Source: Thamnidium elegans (Eukaryota; Mucoromycota; Mucoromycetes; Mucorales; Mucoraceae). From it: 64,000 bases of DNA. Numbering within the stretch: the first letter of the stretch is position 1; each line of letters opens with the position of its first letter. Below, piece after piece: positions 36,663 to 58,396 of this stretch. A program made the translations under genes and the position numbers. A model generated the notes under the pieces. The model did not search any database, had not been told where the DNA came from, and saw only the letters and a list, made by a program, of their open reading frames with translations. Location of the stretch: positions 344,501 through 408,500 of the forward strand of contig JAIXMG010000021.1 in NCBI GenBank assembly GCA_025201345.1, given 5' to 3'.

Positions 36663-38008
36663 ACTGTATACATATATATAATACAACAGCAACAACACAC
36701 GCAAAAAAAAAAAAAAAAATTCCATCCCTTTAGTTATTTTTTTTTTTATATATATCGATACACACACACACACACACAAACCACATTCATTTCCAGATAC
36801 AAAAAATAAAATAAAAAATGCATATATGACACATATTCTGTTCCGACTGTTTTGTAACCGGGTTAAACCGGCGAAACAAAAAATACATATTCCTTTTCCC
36901 GAGTTAAAAAGGGCCAGCTTCTCGTTTATTAGTAGTGCACACAAAAGATGTAATCATACATCATCTAAGTTAATGTCTTACATGTCTTATATATAAAAAA
37001 AACCCCTCCCCTCTTCTTTTCTAATTTACCCATGGGCTAACTTTTTTGAAACTTAGTTACACCAATTATTTTTTTCTGTCTTGAAAGGATAGTGTAACCA
37101 AAAGAAAATTAAAAACGAGGCATCCATTGAATGCACCGGGGCCGATCTATAACATAAAGTTTCAACTCTACCAATTGCATATCTTGTGAGACCACTAACT
37201 ACAGATTAAAAAAGTAGCTTCGAGCTTATAAAATAACAAGAGCTTCCTTTTTCCTCTATTCATCTCAACCGCACCATGTATCCAGTAGCAGCCTTATTAA
37301 GGGTGATCGAAATATGAAAGAGACCTTACCATTAAATCGAACATACCCTTATATCGAACAGTGAATGGGATATCTAGCAATAAAAATACCGGACAAGTTT
37401 TTTTTTTTTATGTTTATTCCAAGTAGTGACAATATAATATAGTTTTACGATACATCCATAAATAAACAGCGACTTATAAGTAACTACTAAATCTTTTGTG
37501 TAATTTTCCCTATAGTAATAGTAGTAATACTTATAGCGAATCTTTCAATTATTTTTGACTACTCTGTTGAACTCAATTTTGGCTTATCAATAAATCTATT
37601 AAATCAATGGCAATATTAATTGACAGTCATCAATATTTATATATTCAGTAGGCTGCGTGTGTAACCAGAAAAGCGAAGCATAACGTTACATAGAACTAGA
37701 CCAAAGCGTATGAAAGACTTAACTACTATATACACATTATAAAAGAAATTCAGGTGTCCGTAACTTCTTTGTAGAGACTTACAAAGCACAAAACGACTTA
37801 AGTAAGTCTACTTGTATGTATTAGCGTAGTAAAAAGAGTACACAGAGGATTTGTGATATGCGACAAATATAAATACTTGTAACCTTTTGACCTTGCTAAG
37901 CCAATTCCATTTTACGCCTCTTTTCCTTTTTTTCCTTTCCTCAAAAACTTTTTTTTAAAAGAAACGTAAAAGCTTTTTTTTTTTTTTTTCTTAATTTTAG
38001 AAAGAAAA
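36663..38008. other. intergenic, with (CA)n tract and TATA box
   Basis: No gene seen. Contains a CA-dinucleotide run near 36762-36778. TATAAATA at 37868-37875, about 135 bp before the SEL1-gene start, is a possible TATA box. An AT-rich 1.3-kb stretch otherwise. Confidence 0.5.
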
Positions 38009-39479
38009 ATGGGATTTTTTGGTAAGGCACAGCTTTTTTTTTTTATCTTGCAACACTAATATAAAAATGGAAAATTCAGGCAAAACAACGGCTGACGACT
38101 GGTATAAAAATGGGGTAAAGCGATATGACAGCAAAAACTATAACGCGGCCTTATGCAATTTTTTTGAAGCAGCGGAAAGTAATCACGCTGAAGCACAATA
38201 CTTAGGCGTTTTATATGAGAATGGTTACGGAGTTGACGTCAATTACGATGTGGCACTTTCCTGGTACTTAAAAGCAGCAGAACAAGGGAATTCAAATGCA
38301 CAAAACAGTATTGGTTTTTTATATCGGAATGGTTACGGAGTTGACGTCAATTACGATGTGGCACTTTCCTGGTACTTAAAAGCAGCAGAACAAGGAAATT
38401 CAGGTACTCAAAACTATTTAGGTATTTTATATGAGACTGGGTATATAGTTGATGTCAATTACGATGTGGCACTTTCCTGGTACTTAAAAGCAGCAGAACA
38501 GGGAGATACAGATGCGCAAAACAGTATTGGCCTTTTATATTACGGTGGGAAAGGCGTAGAACAAGATTTTAATACAGCTAGAGAATGGTTTACGAAAGCT
38601 GCCGAAGGAGGAAACGTAGAAGCTCAGCTAAGTTTGGGTGATTTATATAGAACTCAGCAGAATTATATTGAGTCAATAAGATGGTTTAAAGAAGCTGCAA
38701 ATGGCGATAACGATGAGGCTATGCATAAAATTGCCGAGCAGTTTTATAATGGTCAAGGTGTAACCAAGGGCTATTAAGAGGCAATATGTTGGTTCACAAA
38801 AGCCGCTGAAAAGAGGTACACTCCTGCCCAAAACACTCTTGGACAAATGTACAAGGATGGGTATGGTTCTCCTGTAAATTATGAAAAGGCGTTTAAATGG
38901 TATAAAATGGCGTCGGATAGTGGGAATGCTATTGGACAAACAAATATTGCAGACATGTATTACGAAGGATTAGGTGTTGAGAGAGATTACGATGAGTCGA
39001 TTCGTTTATATAGACTGGCAGCCGAAGCAGGGGACAAAGAAGGTCAGATGCACCTTGGTATTATGCATCTTGATGGATTTGGCACCGAGATTAATCTTGA
39101 TACAGCTCTAGAGTGGTTTGAAAAGTCATTAGAAAATGGGTATGAACCAGCACGAGTATACATTGACCAAGTAAAGACCAGAAAACTTCAATCTCGGATA
39201 TGGTTACGCGTAGAAAGTGAAGCTAAAACTGAAAGGGAAATAGAATTAGAAAGAGAAGCGAGAGAAGCAAAAGAGCAAATTGCTATATTGCTAGAAAAAC
39301 TTGCAATGAAGGATTCAGAAATTGAACAATTTATAAAAACAGCCAAAATAGACGCGAATGCAGAAGTACCGATTCCTTCGATAGAAGTAGTTAAAGTTGT
39401 TCTAGCACCAGATAAAGAAGACGAAAAGTTCCAAAAACAACATTGTCGCAAAAAACCTCTCATATTCTTTAAAGTTTAA
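38009..39479 (+). pseudogene. SEL1-repeat protein gene with an in-frame TAA
   Basis: Start at ATG 38009 with a 13-nt exon (MGFFG) spliced over 38022-38079 to KTTADDWYKNGVKRYDSKNY; an alternative unspliced start is ATG 38067 (MENSG...). The protein is a run of 36-residue SEL1 (TPR-like) repeats with the usual (A)QxxLGxLYxxGxGVxxDYxxAxxWYxKAAEQG pattern, then a coiled-coil tail. TAA at 38775-38777 interrupts the reading frame between GVTKGY and EAICWFTKAAE; the same frame then stays open to 39477. So one nonsense codon splits an otherwise intact protein of about 470 residues. SEL1 proteins act as adaptor scaffolds; this type is amplified in Mucoromycota. If translated only to the stop, it would be about 240 residues and still fold as repeats. 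Confidence 0.75.
38220..38505 (+). repeat. 108-bp tandem expansion of the SEL1 unit
   Basis: Three near-identical blocks with starts at about 38220, 38328 and 38436, period 108 bp (36 codons). Blocks one and two share about 68 identical bases beginning AATGGTTACGGAGTTGACGT; block three keeps most of this. Identity at silent sites shows recent duplication. Confidence 0.92.
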
Positions 39480-41056: not shown

Positions 41057-44000
41057 TTATTCTGGGTTTTTTAAGGCGACTACCTTCGTAGAATGATTTA
41101 AGGCCAAATAGTTTTCTTTCGATACAACATTTTGACCCTTTACTTTTACAGAGAAATAAAGTGAGGATAAATGACTCTTATACTTGACTGAAATTATAAT
41201 AGGCATGTCACAATTGTACTCATTATTAGTTAGTTCAAAAATCTTCAATTTTTCCAAAGCCATGTTATCCAATGGGATAGTACTTCCGTTATCCAAAGAG
41301 GTAGTACTTTTGTTATCAATGTGGTCTGTAATTTTTACCCTAAATATACCTACAGAAATTTTCAAAATAAAATAAAATAAAAAGGGGATAAGTATTTGGA
41401 TCTTATTTTTCGATCTAGTTACTTACTTATACGAACTATTTCTTCTATACCACTATGGCTTTGGCTGGTTTTTAGTTTTCTTTCTAAACTAAAGGACTTT
41501 TCTAAACCAAAGCGATCAATTGTATCTCCTTTTTTTAAAAGTAAGAAGGCACGTTCCTTATCGATTGTATTAGGTACTACGCCCAACCTTGCATCCTTCT
41601 TTGAGGGTACAATAGTATCGTAAATTCCAGATTCAGACAATGTTATAGAGTAGGCGTAACTTTCATTAGATATCACAGCCATATTTCCGCGTTGAAAGCT
41701 TGTTTGAGAAAAGACAGGTTGTTTATGATCAATTTTGGGATGTAAAAACTGAGCTGGAAAATCTTCTATGATAAAACATCGCGCACTGGTTTCTTTACCG
41801 ATAAGCTTACCGTTTAATTCAGTTGATAGCAAGTAAGCAATCTTCTTTTGGTATTCCGAGTTTTGGTTAAAGTGAATAAGACCAAAGAGATAGTTTAAGT
41901 CGTAGTATGATCCGAATAGATTTGTATTTTCGAGCGAGCTATATAGTGTGGTAGCAAGGCTTTTGAACGTGGGTTTCCAAGCGATTTCAATCATGCTATT
42001 CATACTCAAGTTGATAACACAGTTACAAGTATGAGTTAATGGTATTGTCAGTCTGTCATCTGACGCGTTTATCAAACCCTAAAAAAAAAAATACAAAAAG
42101 ATGAATAAAAAAATGTATATGAAAAACACGTCAATTGTATAGTACTTACGTTTTCTGACATGTATGATTTAAGAGATTTAAAAAAATCTTCTCTGGCATC
42201 AAATGAAAACAATTCTTGGACTTGGTATATGCTTTGGCATTTATGATATTCACATAGTATGATCAAGCTTTCCGTTTGCACAACACAGTTCCATACATTC
42301 ATGCACAGAGAATCGTATATGTTTTCAATCGAAATAATTTTGTCTTTTATAACAATGGATGATGCTTCGACTTCTGAACTACCAGGTACCACCACCTTGT
42401 TTAAAGTAAGCTGTATGTAGTCTTCGTGAATGTTGGCTAATAAGAAGTACGAGTTGAGAGGGAATTCAGACCCCTCATGACGTCGTTGAAGTAAAGGTAA
42501 CAATCCTTCTCCTCTTGTAATAACCTTGAGATAATTTGAAGTGCCTTCGGATTTAACAATTCCACTGGCGGCCACAATTTCCTCGAATTCGCTTTTGGTT
42601 CCAATAGCATTGTCTAATAGCATTCTTTCGATTGATACTACATACCCAATCTCTAACTCTGCTTCGTCAAATCCCAAGTTTTTCTTTAATATTACATCTT
42701 TTAAATAAGCCAAGTAGACTATCAAAAAAACTCTAATATGTTTCTGTTGCTGAGTGTTATAATTTTGTTGTTGTGTGGAATCAGAATCTTCTTCAAAGAA
42801 AAAGTCCGTACTCAGTATAGTTTTAATTTCTGACAAAAGGGTTTTCTTTAGTTCAGAAGAAAAAATATAGAATTGTTTTTCTTCATAAGCCGGGAATATT
42901 TTCTTTTGTTCTATTTCTTTTTCTTTTTCTTCTTTTGCTTTTTCTTCTTCTTTTGTTTTTTCTTCTTTTGTTTTTTTTTTATTGCTTGCTTTTTTTTCTT
43001 CAAGTGTTTTTTGGTCTTTTTTTATTTCTTTTTCTGGTTCCTGACGTTTTTTAGAATGACGATTGTATTTACTGAAGTATTCTAAATAGTCAGGGAAAAT
43101 ACTCTCGATGGAATCAAACCCACTGTATAATTGTTAGTATACTTTGTCCTTTTTTTTTCTTTAAATCCCACTTTTCAATTTATCTTACTCCTTTGTCAGT
43201 TTTAACGTTGTTATATTTGAAATATCTAAAAATTTATCTAAAGAAAGCGCCCTAAAGTTTATCGTTTTAGTACGAGATTCTGTTATTGTTTTGTTTTACT
43301 TGTGTAAGATATCAAAAACACATACTGATTATCACTAGAAAGAGAATTAGTATCAAATACTTCTTTAATATCCCCGTTTTCCTTTAAATTCGAGAAAGAA
43401 ATGATTGTTGATTCAAGCGAAATATCTATTACAATAAGTATTAGTTTCAATTTATATTTATACAACACCTAAACTAACCTATGTTAATAATAGCATCTAA
43501 CTTTATTTCCGGATATTCAGTCTTAAGATCAATGTTAGAAGGATCTTGACTGTCTTCAAGATTATCTTGAGAATAAGAAATTGTTGCGTTAGCAAATAAA
43601 TTTAAAAAATTTATAGACATTTGAATTGTTTCCTCCATCAAATCAGATATAGTAATATGATCATTGGGTTCCTGTGCCTTCATCATTGGCAAGTATTTAC
43701 TATTTGTAAATTTTTCTTTGCTTTCTAAAATTTTCTCTACCCATGGAATCCAAGGATGTGTCTGTGTATCGAATGGGGCACAATATTCAAATGCTAAAAT
43801 TAATGTACGACTCGTACTAAACGAGTGCTTCAATAAGCTTTCTAGACCTCGTACAATTTGAATATCAATTACGCCGCATATATCTGATACAGTTACTGAT
43901 CTAAGCGTCTTTTGCTGCGGGCTTGTTAAATTCCAAACATCCATATCAATATTCTGAAATAATTTTTCTTGTTCATAAGTTGTAGCTCTATCATACCAAA

Positions 44001-45062
44001 AAGTCTCCATATATAAAGGTTAATTACTTGAATTGTATGGACATGTGTGTGCTTGTGTGTTTTTCATGTTTACCGTTTTCTCTGGAAAGTAATTCAATAC
44101 ATGGTCTATTATTAAATCCAAAATATCATTACTTTTAGTAGATATTGCACTTTCTATAAAATTTCGTATATTTTCCTTGAAACCTAAAAGAGACGAAGAA
44201 ACAAAACTCGAACGTATTGATATGGGTTCAAGAAATACCTCTTGGACATTCAATGTTGACTTCTTGGGTGAAATTACATCAAGATTGAGAGATAAAGTTC
44301 CTTTCTTATCCGACGATATTCTACATAAAATGTTTTCTTTGCCTTCCTCGTAAAGTTTAGTACGGCTGTAAGCGTCCATATTTATACTACGTCGTTGTAA
44401 ATAGTAAAAGGTAGCTTCCAAATCAGTATAGAATAAAAGTCTATCTTCATGGTCATCTTTTGATATAATACCCGCTTGTATAAAAAGAGGGCGAATAATA
44501 TAGTTCCTCATTCCAGATTCCCATTCAGAAGGAATAATTATTATGTAGTGAAACGCACGGGGGTTTTTTCTTGTAACCTCATGGTAATAAATCGATTTTT
44601 CTAAATTTTCTTGCAGGAATTTCGATATTGCAGTAAAGGCAAAGCTATCATCTTGATCTTTGTAATTATCACCGTGTTCATGATATATACGTATTTTTTT
44701 TAGGAATTGATCAACATGTGTATATTCATCTTTGCGCTCGAAGTTTGGATCTTGTCCATAATCTAAAACTTTTTTTCTTTTCTCGTCATAGGTAATACAG
44801 GCTTTACCTCTGTATGCAATGAATTTATGTCAAAATAGCATTACATTATTTTATATTATTTTACGTACTTATAATTATAATTTTCTGTCTCTCGCTTCGC
44901 CTCGAGTGTGTTTATTGGCGTTAGCGAAGACTTTAAAGTAATGTACTCGTTATCAAAGTCTATATACATATATAAATAACTACAACAACAACAACAAAAG
45001 GTTTGATACTTACGAATAACCATACACTCTGTGTGTTGATGAAAATTATAGTCATTCTCCAT
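41057..45062 (-). CDS. double Hsp70-like (actin-fold) protein with lost nucleotide motifs, paralogue A
   Basis: Start MENDYNFHQHTECMVIH (ATG 45060-45062); at least nine exons were traced and all joins keep frame. The first Hsp70-like half has FHYIIIIPSEWESGMRNYII, then AGIISKDDHEDRLLFYTDLE, which aligns in pattern with the 'tVPa.W...A...mreAa..AGli...dh.dRl.l.sEPEAAa' connector of fungal Hsp70-like proteins. Phosphate-2 DxGGGTxD is replaced by LCRISSDKKGTLSLNLDVIS. A second such half follows: IGYVVSIERMLLDNAIG...ASGIVKSEG...LKVITRGE, then NSYFLLANIHEDYIQLTLNK. Later come YLFGLIHFNQNSEYQKK (adenosine-site GG lost) and LLLKKGDTIDRFG. A Lys/Glu-rich linker (about 42860-43040) separates the halves. 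All P-loop-like residues needed for ATP hydrolysis appear absent. Function unknown. Confidence 0.72.
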
Positions 45063-46179
45063 ATTAATGAAATACTAATAAGAGAATGGAATAAGAACAA
45101 AAAAGAAAAGGATGGGAAAGAAGAAGGTATATCGGGATACCAATTTTCCGTTACACTTTTATTAGCCACTTTACATGTAACATTACATGTTACATTGGAA
45201 TCAACAGTCCTAGATGAACATGTTTTATTACATTAATTTTCAGAAGATAAAAGCTATAGAGAAGATATTCAACATGTAAGCTAAACTCCTCCCTCGGAAT
45301 TGAAAACACAAGTTATTTAAATGAAACATAAGATTAATGGTATAAAAAAAAAAAAGAGTAAAGAGTTGTTCCAAGTTATCGAAGCTCGGAAGAGAAAACC
45401 TTTTTGGAACAAAAATAATTAGATTGAAAATCCTTGAACGTAAATTGTATCACTTCCCACAGTCTATTTTATATCTCGGCATAAATGTTTTTCTTTGAAG
45501 CAAGGACCTAATATGTTATTTATTTTAAAAGATATAGAAAACTAGATATTTGCGCGTACTAACGTCATATGATTCAAAACATGGCAAAAAGAGGTTTCTA
45601 AAGCTCCCCCATTAACGTTAAATATGCTCTTTCACAAGCTTCAAATGGGCTTATTTTTTTTTAAAAAAAAAGCTTAAATTGTTGCTACTTTTAAAATAAT
45701 AATAGAGACAACGGATAATATATAGTTTAAGCACTAATCTAGTTTGCTCGTTTGTTTATTTGTTTGTTTTTTTTGGCTGAAGGAAGGATTGTCATCTGTA
45801 GTTAAGCAATAAACATTCGTGTTCATACTATGTACTTCTGAATTCCCTTTTCGGGAAATACTTTGCCCTAAAATCATTTGAACCATTTTCATATAGCATG
45901 AATACACTTTATTTTTTAGAAAAAAAAGGGAGATGAGGGACAATATATTAAGCCGTATGAATTACATAGTGGAATAAGCAGGAAAAAAAAATACTTTGAA
46001 AAAAGTAATCGCCACTCGTCTTCGAAAAAGCCAAACGAGTAACACGAAAGGAAAAAAATATAAATATCGTGTTTTGTACCATGCTATTTATTCACCCAAT
46101 AAAAGTACTTTTTTTTTTGTCTTTCTCTTTTCTTTTGTTTCTTTAGTTTTACTCTTTCTTTTTTTAAAAAAAAAAAGAA
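45063..46179. promoter_or_regulatory. divergent upstream region of the two Hsp70-like paralogues
   Basis: 1.1 kb between divergent starts. A small nested palindrome ACATGTAACATTACATGTTA lies at about 45172-45191. T/A tracts flank both starts. ORFs here are short and were not believed. Confidence 0.4.
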
Positions 46180-49100
46180 ATGACAGAAACAGATACAGAA
46201 ATTAAAAAAATACCTGAAAGCTATGGCTTTCAAAAGCATAGTTACTGCATGGTTATTCGCGAGTATTTTTGTTTTCACTTAAATGTCTATCTTTTTTTTT
46301 AATATTTAATTATTCTTGTAGATATGGATAACGAGTACATTACCACAAAGCATTTTCTTAATAAATTAGAAGGTTTTTCTAGCCAAGAAAAGTATCCTGG
46401 AAGGTACTGTATACTTAAGCAATTCTAGTGCATTTTCTAATTGTGGCATTTTTTTTTTAGAGACAAAGCGTGTATCACTTATGATGAAGAAAAAAAGACG
46501 GTTTTGGATTGGGGAGAAGATCCAGCTTACAGTCCCCCAAATGGGAGCAAGCATATCAGGAGCTTTATGGTTGGGATATTTGAAATTTATAAAAAATGTC
46601 TGAAAACAAAGACAGCTAGAGCAAAGAAAGAAGACGATGAAATCCGTGAATACGATAAAAACGATGAAAGCGACGAAAACGGTGAAAATGGTGAAAATTG
46701 CAAATATAATGTAAACAATGAAGATAATGAGGACAGTGAAGACGAAGAATATGATATAAGTAAAAATGATGTTAAAAATGATCAAACCAATAAAGTGGAT
46801 GATAGTGACAGATTCAAAGATTTCGCCGAATTCGCTTGCTTTGATGAAGAAGATAAATTTTTTTTAGATGCAGTATCAAAATTTATATGGTTAAAGTTTA
46901 AAAAATCATTCAACTATCACGAAATAACCCAAAAAAGCAATGACGCCTTTCATTATATATTCATAATGCCTTCATCTTGGAATAAAAGAATAATAAGATG
47001 GATTCTGCGACCGCTCTTTATAAATTCTGGTATTATCACAAAAGCCGATCACAAGGACAGAATTTTATTTCTTACCGATTTGGAAGCCGTTTTTTATCAT
47101 TTGCAGAGTCAAAAATACGCTGAAATGAACAATAGTTCTCAAGTCTTTAGAAAGGGACAAGAGAGTGTTTTATGTAGAGTTGCCTCAAACAAGAATACAG
47201 CATCTATCGAGTTCGATTTAATCTCACCACAATACCCTCGATTGGATGTATCTAAAGTCATTTTTTTCCCTCGTGTATTAAAATCGGAAAAAGCTTCTCT
47301 AAGTCTTGATCATTTTAAAAAGAAAGTGGGTGAGTTTATAAAAGAAAAGTTTATTAAAGGAGAAACCGAAGAGTGTGAAAAAGAAATTCTTGATAGAATC
47401 GTGGATTCTGTGCTAAATTACTTTTCACAGCGAAAGGTAATAATATAAAATGATAGGACCCTACTTTTGATGATTAACCTTTTATTTTTATGCAAGTATT
47501 TTTATTCTCGTAAAATTACCGACTATTCCAACTATTACATATTTAAAACTACAAATTTGACAGACTGGCAATTAACCGATACTCAAATCAAGGTTATACA
47601 ATCAATCGAGGTTAATCACATTTTTGACGTACTTGATCAAAACGGGGGATTAAAAACTATTAAAAAAGCAATACAAGATGTAACAAATAATCGCAAAAAA
47701 AAGCGTACCTTAGTTTTGACTCATCGGTATTTTTCTTTTAACGAACAAGTACCTCCTTTAGTTCCTTGGTTAGAAGAATTTTTAGAATATTACAAGGAAC
47801 ATTTGGAATACTCCATTGTTTCTGCTACAAGTGGGTACAATCCTAGTGAGCATATCTCTCTACCTGATATGATGGCGGGTGCTGCTACTAGAGCATCGCA
47901 GGTCATAAGGAATGCTAATATAAATGCTATACCTTTCGAATTACCAAAAGATCGCTCTAAAGTTAATCGTGAAACTCCTTCTTCTATATTCTTTGACAAA
48001 AAACAAAATGCTACTATCGTTATGGGTTAGTTAAAGTACCAAAATAAGAGGGTACTTACCATATTTTAACACTTCTTGTAATAGATATATCCCTGGAAGC
48101 AACCTTGATTTCATACTCGTCTCTAGACGACAAAGGTGATATCGAGGACGTCTACGACAGCAGTCATTTTGAGTAAGTGCACCTATACAGGTTTCGTAAC
48201 CAAAATTCTCAGTACTAAAACCAATATGTTATTAGATTACCTCCTTTGAGCAAATTCTTTGATATTTCTAATGGGGCGAGCTTAAAAGTGAATAAGAGGT
48301 ACTTTTTATTAAACATATATACATATATTTATTTATATTAACAATTTACAGGATTATTTTGTTTATTGATAAATACTTGGCCATTGATTTAGATTACTTT
48401 AGTAAATACGACCGTCAAATTAAAAGAGACAGCGAGTCAAGTGAAACCAATCAGCCTTCCAAGCCTAAAGGGAATGAGCTGCCTGAATATTTTTTCAGAC
48501 AAAAAGACGAACGAAAAGTCGATCTTATGTCTGCGATTAAAAAGCTGCTTGATGCAGATTATTTAGCAGAAGAACAATTAATCGATACTCAACAACAAAA
48601 GTATATCAGAACCTTCTTATTGATATACTTGTCCTATTTAAATGAGGTTATATTAAACAAGAAACCAGAGGTGAAAAAATCAAATGTTGGGTATGTAATG
48701 TCCGTCGAAAAGATGTTGTTGGACAATTTGGTAGGTACCAAAGAAAATTTTAAAGAAATCGTACTTGCAAGTGGAGTGATTCGAGAAAGCGATCCCACAA
48801 AAAAATTAAAGGTGATTACACGTGGTGAAGAACTATCTGTTTTACTTCAACAGGCTTCTGGGTTGAAGATTTCTTGCAAGTCTTACTTTGTAGTATTTCA
48901 ATTACATGAAGATTATATACACTTTACACTAAATCGGGTAGTGACAGCTTCTGATTCTAATAACAAAGAATCGTCTATTATCATAGAAGATAAAATCCTT
49001 CCTATTCGAAATATATACAAATCCTTGTTTATGAATATGTGGAAACATCTAACACGAGAAGGAGATTTTGTTGATCGATGTGGTGACCATAGTGATGATG

Positions 49101-50263
49101 AAAATTATGATTGCTTGGAATTTATCTCGTGCGAAACTAAAAAAATGCTTTTTAACGATTTTAAAACGTATGTCGAAAAGAATGTAAGTATACAGATATA
49201 TATACAACTACCGCATCTTCTTATTAAATAATATGTATTATAGATTACTCATACGAATTCCAACCCACTAAGTGGAGACGAAGAAACGATATTGTTAAGA
49301 TATAATGATACTTGTAAATGTAGTGTTAATTTCTCTGCTAAAGATATTATAAACCTTGCCTTTATACCAACTTTTAAAGAAATTGCCACTACAATATTCA
49401 CTGTGATAGCAAATAAGGATGAATCCGGAAACTACATGAATATTTTTTGTGTGTTTGGTTTGATCTACTTTAATCGTAATCAAGAATTTCAAAAGATTTT
49501 AGCTGATATATTACAAGAAGAAGTAGTTCAATGTATAGACGGTAAAGAAATCGAAGTGAAATGCTTTGTTGTTCCAGATTTACCAAGTCAATTTTTGCAA
49601 CCAAAAGCCGGCCAAAAATCTTTATTATATCAAGACTTTCAAGTCGGTAGCTTGAGCCAAGTGTCTAGTGAAACGTATGGGTTTTTCGCAACATATCTTA
49701 AAGGAGCAATGGAAGAAATTAATCTCTCATACACCGAGAAAAAGTCCAATAAAAAGGTTACCAAAATGTACAAAAACCACATCTTTCCGCTATTAAAGAA
49801 AGGAGAGATCATTGATAGCTTTGGTTTAGATAAAACATTCTTTTTGGACCCCCAAAGCCCAACCGAACAAAGCGCAACCGAACAAAATACAACCGAGCAA
49901 AGTGCAACCAAACGAAGCGTAACCAAACAAACCTTCAATATAGGTAAATTAAAGAAAACACAAAAATCGAAAATTATACACACTGACTTTTATTATTCTC
50001 TAGTTTTATACAAATTGAAAAAATTGGATAACGTAAAAGACGATGAAAGGGCGCCTATGACAACCAATTTCTGGGACGAAGTAAAGACTTTTACATTGAC
50101 AAATCGTGGACTGGGTAGTCGTATTCCAATTATGATTTCTATGAGACCTAATGTGTATAGCCCTCTACTTGATTTCTCAGTAAAATTTGTTGGTCAAGCT
50201 ATTGCCTCTGAGAAAGAGCATTGTGTTAAAGTTGGCGAGTCCATGACTATAGCAAGATATTAA
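46180..50263 (+). CDS. double Hsp70-like (actin-fold) protein with lost nucleotide motifs, paralogue B
   Basis: A 1,222-residue protein; exons 46180-46258, 46322-46403, 46461-47436, 47497-48025, 48085-48172, 48236-48298, 48352-49183 and 49244-50263 sum to an exact multiple of three. It matches paralogue A along its length, with the same introns and phases. Half one: FHYIFIMPSSWNKRIIRWIL and SGIITKADHKDRILFLTDLE, then LCRVASNKNTASIEFDLIS where DxGGGTxD should be. Half two: VGYVMSVEKMLLDNLVG, LKVITRGEELSVLLQQ, KSYFVVFQLHEDYIHFTLNR. Half-two C-terminus: FCVFGLIYFNRNQEFQKILA and FPLLKKGEIIDSFGLDKTFF. B has its own Asp/Glu/Asn-rich insert (about 46630-46790) and a 15-bp tandem repeat. Intron 1 must use a GC donor to stay open. 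Likely a non-hydrolysing scaffold or sensor, but this is inference. Confidence 0.75.
49861..49935 (+). repeat. 15-bp tandem repeat encoding (A/T)TEQ(S/N)-type units
   Basis: Five units of 15 bp (AACCGAACAAAGCGC-like) encode repeated Thr-Glu-Gln-Ser-Ala pentapeptides, degenerating to Thr-Lys-Gln. Absent from paralogue A at the matching position. Confidence 0.9.
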
Positions 50264-50420: not shown

Positions 50421-51207
50421 ATGCTTGCAGACCTACGTAGAATGAATGTGCGACAGGTACAAAAAAAAACGATTTTTTTTATATTTCTAGGTAACTTAAA
50501 AACGAATTAAGGTCGCTTTACAATGCTTGAGTTTTATAACTATTGCCGCTTCGGCACTTATGGCTTGGAAAAGTTTCTCGGTTATCACGAATACTGAAAG
50601 CCCTATAGTTGTCGTAATGAGGTAGATACATGTACAAAAAGAAGGAGATATATAAATAAATAAAAAAATAAAAATTATTTTGATCTAGTGGAAGTATGAG
50701 ACCAGCATTTGATCGTGGTGATTTGTTATTTCTTAGCTTACCTAAAAATGACCCTGTGGAAATAAACGATATTTGTGTATTCAAATTACCAGGAAAAGAT
50801 ATTCCCATCGTTCATAGAGTGCTTAAAATACACAAAGAGTATATATATATGTATATATATATTAGTAAAACTACTAGTTTATTTATTTTATTCATTTATT
50901 TTAGTATAAACACCGAGAAAGAATATATTTTAACAAAGGGAGATAACAATACACTAGATGATCGATCACTATACGGCTCTGGGCAAATGTGGATTCATAA
51001 AGAGAACATAGTTGGAAAAGTAAAAGGGTAATATATTAAACTATTTTTTTTTTCTTATATATATCATGTATTAATTTTTTTTTCTTCTTGCATGATAGAT
51101 TTATGCCTTACGTTGGCATGGTTACTCTTTTAATGAATAGTTATCCTTGGGTGAAATTCGCGTTATTAGGTGTTCTTGGATTTTTTGCTCTTATTCGTAG
51201 AGAATAA
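50421..51207 (+). CDS. SEC11: signal peptidase complex catalytic subunit SEC11
   Basis: A 175-residue ER membrane serine protease; exons 50421-50456, 50512-50621, 50689-50838, 50905-51027 and 51099-51207 join in frame. It starts [12 protein letters not shown], typical of Sec11. The N-terminal membrane anchor is [20 protein letters not shown]. The catalytic serine lies in the motif [18 protein letters not shown], split by an intron. The catalytic His is in IPIVHRVLK and the Asp box is [10 protein letters not shown]. The C-terminal hydrophobic segment [18 protein letters not shown] closes the protein. It removes signal peptides from secretory proteins in the ER lumen. The acceptor of intron 1 is a weak TTAAG, needed because the stronger TTTCTAG upstream would bring an in-frame stop. 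Confidence 0.93.
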
Positions 51208-58315: not shown

Positions 58316-58396
58316 CGTCACCAGCAGGGTTTGAACCTGCGCACGTAAACGTATGTGATTTCAAGTCACACTCCTTAACCACTCGGACATAGTGAC
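58316..58396 (-). tRNA. tRNA-Ser (anticodon UGA)
   Basis: On the minus strand, 5' GTCACTA (58396-58390) pairs with TGGTGAC at the 3' end over 7 bp; discriminator G (58316). The anticodon stem TGTGA/TCACA encloses the loop CTTGAAA, giving anticodon UGA (reads UCA). A variable arm TACGTTTACGTGC-type and the T-arm GCAGGTTCAAACCTGC are clear. No intron; CCA not encoded. A run of T follows on the plus-side flank only weakly, so the Pol III terminator is uncertain. Confidence 0.92.

Follow-up and report, generated by a model that had tools for sequence, protein, structure and literature searches.

HSPA12A and HSPA12B harbor one ATPase domain, in contrast to the two ATPase-like halves of the fungal proteins described here, which are denoted family F. 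Remote homology connects F with these two proteins and with single HSPA12-type proteins (e.g. P0048 from Glomus and P0053 from oyster) by way of double HSPA12-like proteins, denoted family D. Two consecutive actin-type folds are likewise found in hexokinases I and II, and one of the two halves of hexokinase I is inactive. In the accessible portions of the respective sources, HSPA12A is described as a cytosolic adaptor for SorLA, to which it binds in an ADP/ATP-dependent manner (PMC6345817), and HSPA12 homologues were found only in vertebrates among the genomes considered in that 2008 paper (PMC2266713). Again going by accessible portions, an expansion of the Hsp70 transporter class, not of family F, is described for Glomeromycotina and anaerobic chytrids (PMC8778642), and the main text of the Thamnidium genome paper is without mention of Hsp70 or heat shock (PMC7928374). 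The accessible parts of the open-access literature searched yielded neither a double Hsp70 of the F or D kind nor a pseudo-Hsp70 family in Mucorales.

The gene pair and its paralogues

The window, i.e. the whole stretch of 64,000 nucleotides from Thamnidium elegans that was analyzed, contains two divergent genes, A and B (Table 1). A sequence-only reading had given them exactly these spans and strands, and both show complete reading frames after GT-AG splicing, the GC-AG donor of B intron 1 being the sole exception in the pair. Splice sites were set manually. The proteins are 32% identical across 1273 columns, and seven introns are common to the genes, in phases 1, 2, 0, 1, 2, 2, and 0, in line with the common exon order and phase already recognized along at least seven introns; A harbors an eighth. 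An alternative phase-1 reading of A intron 5 was dropped because the annotated Helicostylum protein P0001 continues across the chosen junction. The two halves of each protein join at intron 4, at about 43.45 kb in A and 48.05 kb in B, and not at 43.0 and 48.4 kb as first supposed; near 43.0 kb, half 2 of A contains a Lys/Glu-rich insert. The region separating the genes is a possible shared promoter, judged by its position.

Table 1. Features of the divergent gene pair, in window coordinates
Feature	Position	Strand	Remarks
Gene A, predicted double pseudo-HSPA12-like protein	45062-41057	minus	9 exons, 1160 aa
Gene A exons 1-5	45062-45014, 44959-44869, 44809-44074, 44004-43479, 43425-43326	minus	
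Gene A exons 6-9	43251-43189, 43122-42150, 42078-41427, 41349-41057	minus	
Gene A half 1 (pseudo-NBD1)	43479..45062	minus	exons 1-4
Gene A half 2 (pseudo-NBD2) and substrate-domain-like tail	41057..43425	minus	exons 5-9
Divergent intergenic region A/B	45063..46179		1117 bp, from gene coordinates
Gene B, paralogue of A	46180-50263	plus	8 exons, 1222 aa
Gene B exons 1-4	46180-46258, 46322-46403, 46461-47436, 47497-48025	plus	
Gene B exons 5-8	48085-48172, 48236-48298, 48352-49183, 49244-50263	plus	
Gene B half 1 (pseudo-NBD1)	46180..48025	plus	includes acidic Asp/Glu/Asn-rich insert
Gene B half 2 (pseudo-NBD2) and tail	48085..50263	plus	

A protein search with A as query found 15 hypothetical proteins of T. 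elegans, Helicostylum pulchrum, and Mucor flavus. A profile search returned three proteins only, two of them new and both from Helicostylum. Orthologues of both genes in Helicostylum, 63-77% identical, speak for a real pair and against a chance arrangement: P0001 matches A along two stretches (71% and 77% identity) and P0017 matches B along three (63-75%). Since their locus tags are adjacent (HPULCUR_004705 and HPULCUR_004704) and both come from a contig of the same size (1126368), the pair seems to be kept as neighbors in Helicostylum. A midpoint-rooted tree built from 42 sequences, after omission of six rows (F_P0014, F_P0016, D_P0018, D_P0033, D_P0043, and D_P0044), splits the 17 F rows from D with a support of 1.0. 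A with P0001 and B with P0017 form pairs (1.0 each), which join each other (0.956) apart from the expanded remainder.

A and B did not match PF00012 at E<=1, and none of 15 F members did so either; a direct Hsp70 match of F members was found neither in Pfam nor in NCBIfam nor among PDB sequences. Pfam gave three weak, unrelated names on A and none on B, and NCBIfam weak, unrelated names only. F is unnamed in fungal annotations because no Pfam model finds it. These results and the open-access literature searched agree with the earlier statement that no family of this layout has been described, and A and B are, by sequence, members of an apparently undescribed family of Mucorales.

The family is large in T. 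elegans. A genome search with the exon-7 frame of A yielded at least 90 matches, at least 69 of them at E<=1e-30; among these 69 places, 66 are free of in-frame stops and three contain stops (lower-bound counts). Further in-frame stops occur among weaker matches. The exon-3 frame gave 96 genome matches in all. An 86-kb contig (C43) carries twelve match rows on one strand, grouped as nine places with a spacing of 8.2-10.0 kb between 17.5 and 84.6 kb. An interpretation of such arrays of about 10 kb as rDNA was dropped; Rfam found no rRNA in 5.5 kb of sequence from one array unit. The wider family is thus expanded in arrays; the placement of the pair in an accessory region is nevertheless doubtful, because A and B are conserved 1:1 between genera.

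Selection was assessed by pairwise NG86, a coarse, whole-exon measure, on fetched paralogue sequences (17 for exon 3, 15 for exon 7). Pairs with dS<1 number 26 of 136 in exon 3, with a median dN/dS of 0.36, and 16 of 105 in exon 7, with a median of 0.25; values among the pairs listed range from 0.10 to 0.56. No positive selection was seen in either exon at this resolution. F paralogues are under purifying selection, and the proteins are retained despite their disrupted ATP sites.

Double HSPA12-like proteins as a bridge to Hsp70

The exon-3 frame of A weakly matches (E 1.5e-5 to 6.8e-4) places in the genome that are also found by PF00012 or by a D search. Two of these were inspected and represent genes encoding two consecutive HSPA12-like ATPase domains, i.e. 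D proteins. Their domain 1 contains DFGTT, DAGG(G/S)T, and GGFG; domain 2 reads DIGYGTT or DIGYEFS, and its second loop is gone (NMYHDICSL, NIQRDCFHL). About nine D genes are present in the T. elegans genome, and in six of them a half-2 query also matches half 1 (7.0e-6 to 5.6e-4). A protein search with one such gene, C23, gave 40 proteins, of which P0018-P0044 are D proteins or fragments from Thamnidium, Helicostylum, Parasitella, and several Mucor species (e.g. P0019 from Thamnidium, P0022 from M. flavus, and P0041 from M. circinelloides), named hypothetical protein or Heat shock protein 70 in the sources. Sixteen of the 22 D proteins scanned match PF00012 at E<=0.01, and the D profile (alignment A3, omitting P0018, P0030, P0033, P0043, and P0044) matches solved Hsp70s at about 1e-6.

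F resembles D in length, in its two ATPase-domain-like halves followed by a tail, and in a collinear profile match. The two profiles align over 688 columns with an E of 1.1e-9, compared with 0.57 for a reversed control and 0.096 to 0.77 for 15 shuffles. Corresponding halves align best (half 1 with half 1 at 4.9e-8, half 2 with half 2 at 6.1e-6; crosswise 0.0014 and 0.027). Searches with either profile alone, run on 59 proteins, perform less well: 10 of 27 D proteins are recovered with F (E 1.8e-17 to 2.4e-8), and only 3 of 19 F proteins, including A, with D (E 8.2e-12 to 1.3e-9).

Intron positions lead to the same relatives, with seven positions common to F and the D gene C23, the one checked for all seven, and six also in C30. 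In an alignment made from sequence only, seven of the eight A introns lie in the same phase and at most 13 columns from C23 introns, four of them within 2 columns; this comparison rests on manual gene models with phases visible during modelling, the choice being constrained by the reading frame. None of 200000 random placements reached this agreement. Phase-1 introns split the phosphate-1 Asp codon in half 1 and its counterpart in half 2. The phase order 1-2-0 repeats in both C23 halves, a pattern that duplication of an intron-bearing domain would produce; A and B carry one extra phase-2 intron in half 2. In L056, an HSPA12-like gene of T. elegans, an AG likewise immediately precedes the last two bases of the phosphate-1 Asp codon.

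The duplication is therefore seen only via the D family, whose halves align with each other at 3.8e-11, and via the introns; the halves of A and B themselves have no detectable direct similarity (nothing significant by blastp or two-sequence hhalign), and the F profile halves compared with each other give an E of 0.1, which is not significant. With double halves and common introns present and intact half-1 ATP motifs absent, A and B are best placed as a derived sister family of D and not as D members, because the half-1 motifs are lost and the tree splits F from D with 1.0. There is little doubt that both are double pseudo-HSPA12 proteins.

ATP sites and predicted fold

D half 1 keeps DFGTT, DAGGGT, the NES Glu, and GGFG, which F lost wholly or partly. 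The half-1 phosphate-1 loop reads HFDNEY in A and HMDNEY in B, with His at the Asp position and Asp at the Gly position; the GGGT loop has been lost, and the adenosine motif GGFG has no aligned counterpart. Half 2 reads DISLEST or DISLEAT, with the Asp kept and the Gly lost, and ANIHEDYIQL (A) or QLHEDYIHF (B) stands in place of DxGGGT. The claim that both halves lost their ATP-site motifs thus holds, with the nuance of the retained half-2 Asp. The AG(L/I)I..DH.DR pattern reported for both halves is clear only in half 1 (A retains PSEW...AGIISKDDHEDRLLF); half 2 of A reads SGIVKSEGTSNYLKVITRGEG.

Tallies over 19 F and 29 D rows, fragments included, extend this picture. The half-1 phosphate-1 Asp is present in one of the 14 F rows that have a residue at this column, compared with 20 of 21 D rows; the single exception is P0001, whose annotated start seems to fall within the sequence that forms intron 1 in A. 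The Gly of this loop is kept in 12/19 F rows, A and B not among them. The second Gly of DxGGGT occurs in 0/19 F and 26/29 D rows, with a loose alignment of this loop, and an earlier column of the same loop shows G in 4/19 F rows. GGFG has an aligned counterpart in 0/19 F rows and is kept in 27/29 D rows. For half 2, the phosphate-1 Asp is found in 16/19 F and 29/29 D rows, and the Gly in 0/19 F and 28/29 D rows. The simplest order of events would be a decay of half 2 before the F/D split and of half 1 later, in F. Hsp70-type ATP hydrolysis by A or B is, from these residues, very improbable. F proteins may bind nucleotide weakly, since the half-1 Gly and the half-2 Asp persist in most rows.

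Confidence in the structure models was middling (mean pLDDT 56.6 and 63.4; pTM 0.39 and 0.41). Foldseek found the actin/Hsp70 ATPase fold in half 1 (residues 1-410 of the orthologue), although query TM-scores did not exceed 0.21 among the rows listed. Top matches were structures of Hsp110/Sse1, Ssz1, and canonical Hsp70, which share the fold of F half 1; in contrast to these, F has no recognizable DxGGGT or GGFG and has a second ATPase-like domain. In the F-only VIA list, Hsp70 (15.2) and MreB (14.8) are tied, and therefore the superfamily fold is shown, not Hsp70 in particular. All VIA rows listed lie within residues 1-426, and the lack of half-2 rows says nothing against half 2, whose assignment rests on sequence and introns. 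Hexokinase structures (1dgk, 5hex, 1qha, 1hkb) align with the entire model over 1010-1048 columns; given a different activity and no shown sequence relation to F, this is an analogy only. In sum, the tandem-duplicated, catalytically dead Hsp70/actin fold proposed by the sequence-only reading is supported by D-profile homology with its controls, by the introns, by the residue tallies, and, for half 1, by the structure matches.

Possible modes of action

The explanation regarded as probable is that F constitutes a family of ATP-less double pseudo-HSPA12 scaffolds or adaptors. The sequences show F to be related to HSPA12-type Hsp70 proteins with a head-to-tail duplication of an intron-bearing ATPase domain, the D family; D retains the ATP-site motifs of domain 1 but not those of domain 2, and in F the former are lost as well. 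F proteins would have given up the ATP cycle and would hold partners through a conserved surface and the substrate-domain-like tail, perhaps working together with D proteins that retain one ATPase domain. The mode of action itself, as nucleotide-independent scaffolds, is a more tentative part of this proposal. Among the three roles suggested earlier, scaffold is a reasonable reading, and sensor and self/non-self are unsupported here. The best-conserved F stretches are candidate contact surfaces: PSEW...IRP.F...LIS.DDH.DRLLF in half 1, and GYAISIE, TQGEGLLP, HEDYVQLTL, and NIYDSLC in half 2 (conservation windows, unlike the catalytic tallies, omit six F and five D rows). The PxxW...DHxxRLLF segment of half 1 is presumably part of Hsp70 subdomain IA, near the docking site of the J-domain and linker. 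Adaptor roles may occur in the HSPA12 branch, because HSPA12A is reported as an adaptor of SorLA; its binding is nucleotide-dependent in the accessible part of that report, unlike the mode proposed for F, which would lack this switch.

The part-retained sites could also mean that A and B have a remodelled cleft that still binds nucleotide or a different small ligand, and that they act as ligand-gated switches, not passive scaffolds. This is rather unlikely: the half-2 Asp (16/19 rows) and half-1 Gly (12/19) fit it, as does HEDYVQLTL, which replaces the second phosphate loop of half 2 and is among the best-conserved parts; on the other hand, the half-2 phosphate-1 Gly is present in 0/19 F rows, and the aligned D rows already lack DxGGGT in half 2. 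To a similarly low degree, F proteins might be regulators or decoys of ATPase-competent D proteins, dimerizing with them or competing for J-domain partners or clients. The coexistence of about nine D genes with at least 69 F places in one genome and the PxxW...DHxxRL segment kept by both families point this way, but the rest of the Hsp70 consensus is missing from F, and J-domain docking is a guess. Still more speculative is an extension of this idea to a pseudo-enzyme regulatory network, in which an Hsp70-type chaperone would have given rise in Mucorales to a large repertoire of ATP-less double pseudo-chaperones, partly in tandem arrays, acting in trans, as decoys, subunits, or client selectors, on the few double HSPA12s that remain ATPase-competent.

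High copy number and the same-strand array with 8.2-10.0 kb spacing would fit a fast-evolving repertoire for self/non-self or pathogen recognition. Such a role is improbable, as dN/dS values of 0.10-0.56 in the pairs listed give no positive selection at pairwise resolution, Pfam found no effector domain in A, B, or 15 F members, and both genes have 1:1 Helicostylum orthologues. Least of all are the genes likely to be decaying, non-functional remnants that lost catalysis by drift: stops in 3/69 places, and more among weaker matches, contrast with the complete frames of A (eight introns) and B (seven), with their orthologues in a second genus, and with purifying selection among paralogues, by which this reading was already disfavored.

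Pseudokinases have taught much about scaffolding, and a large, selectively maintained pseudo-Hsp70 family of the kind favored here would be their counterpart in the Hsp70/actin fold. The likely steps, from a single HSPA12 to a double protein with one intact domain and on to a double protein with none, lie within one genome. With all steps in one genome, the loss of a chaperone ATP cycle would therefore be directly studiable.

Neighbours and inserts of the gene pair

The SEL1-repeat gene beside the pair contains one in-frame TAA (38775-38777), located mid-repeat, and represents either a nonsense copy or a gene with a splice that was not seen. A putative signal peptidase-like ORF lies a short way downstream of gene B. 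Apart from a single tRNA, Rfam models at gathering thresholds yielded no match in the whole window. The Lys/Glu-rich insert in half 2 of gene A is shorter or absent in gene B, which instead harbors an acidic insert in half 1.

Coordinates of the features (window positions unless prefixed C43, an 86-kb T. elegans contig)
Feature	Position	Strand	Remark
SEL1-repeat gene	38001-39479	+	single reading frame apart from one stop
Lys/Glu-rich low-complexity insert, gene A half 2	about 43060-42890	-	
Putative signal peptidase-like ORF	50684-51031	+	likeness recognised by eye
tRNA	58316-58396	-	Rfam match
L062	C43:38000-43500		F-gene array spacer

Spacer of the F-gene array

The spacer L062 contains short ORFs and no rRNA. 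By eye, one of these ORFs resembles an N-terminal extension of the annotated protein P0006, and the P0006 annotation may therefore be a fusion with spacer sequence.

ATP-site loss in other double HSPA12-like proteins

In P0046, a 1045-aa double HSPA12-like protein from Parasitella parasitica, inspection by eye shows the reverse of the D pattern (motifs kept in half 1, lost in half 2): half 1 has lost the GGGT loop, reading DADSKYLK, while half 2 retains DAGGGTVD and EPEAAA. In the D-type protein P0042 from Mucor saturninus, the phosphate-2 loop of half 1 is altered to IAIGERTT, perhaps another step toward ATP-site loss. Judged from the P0046 motifs, single-site loss may have occurred more than once in double HSPA12-like proteins.
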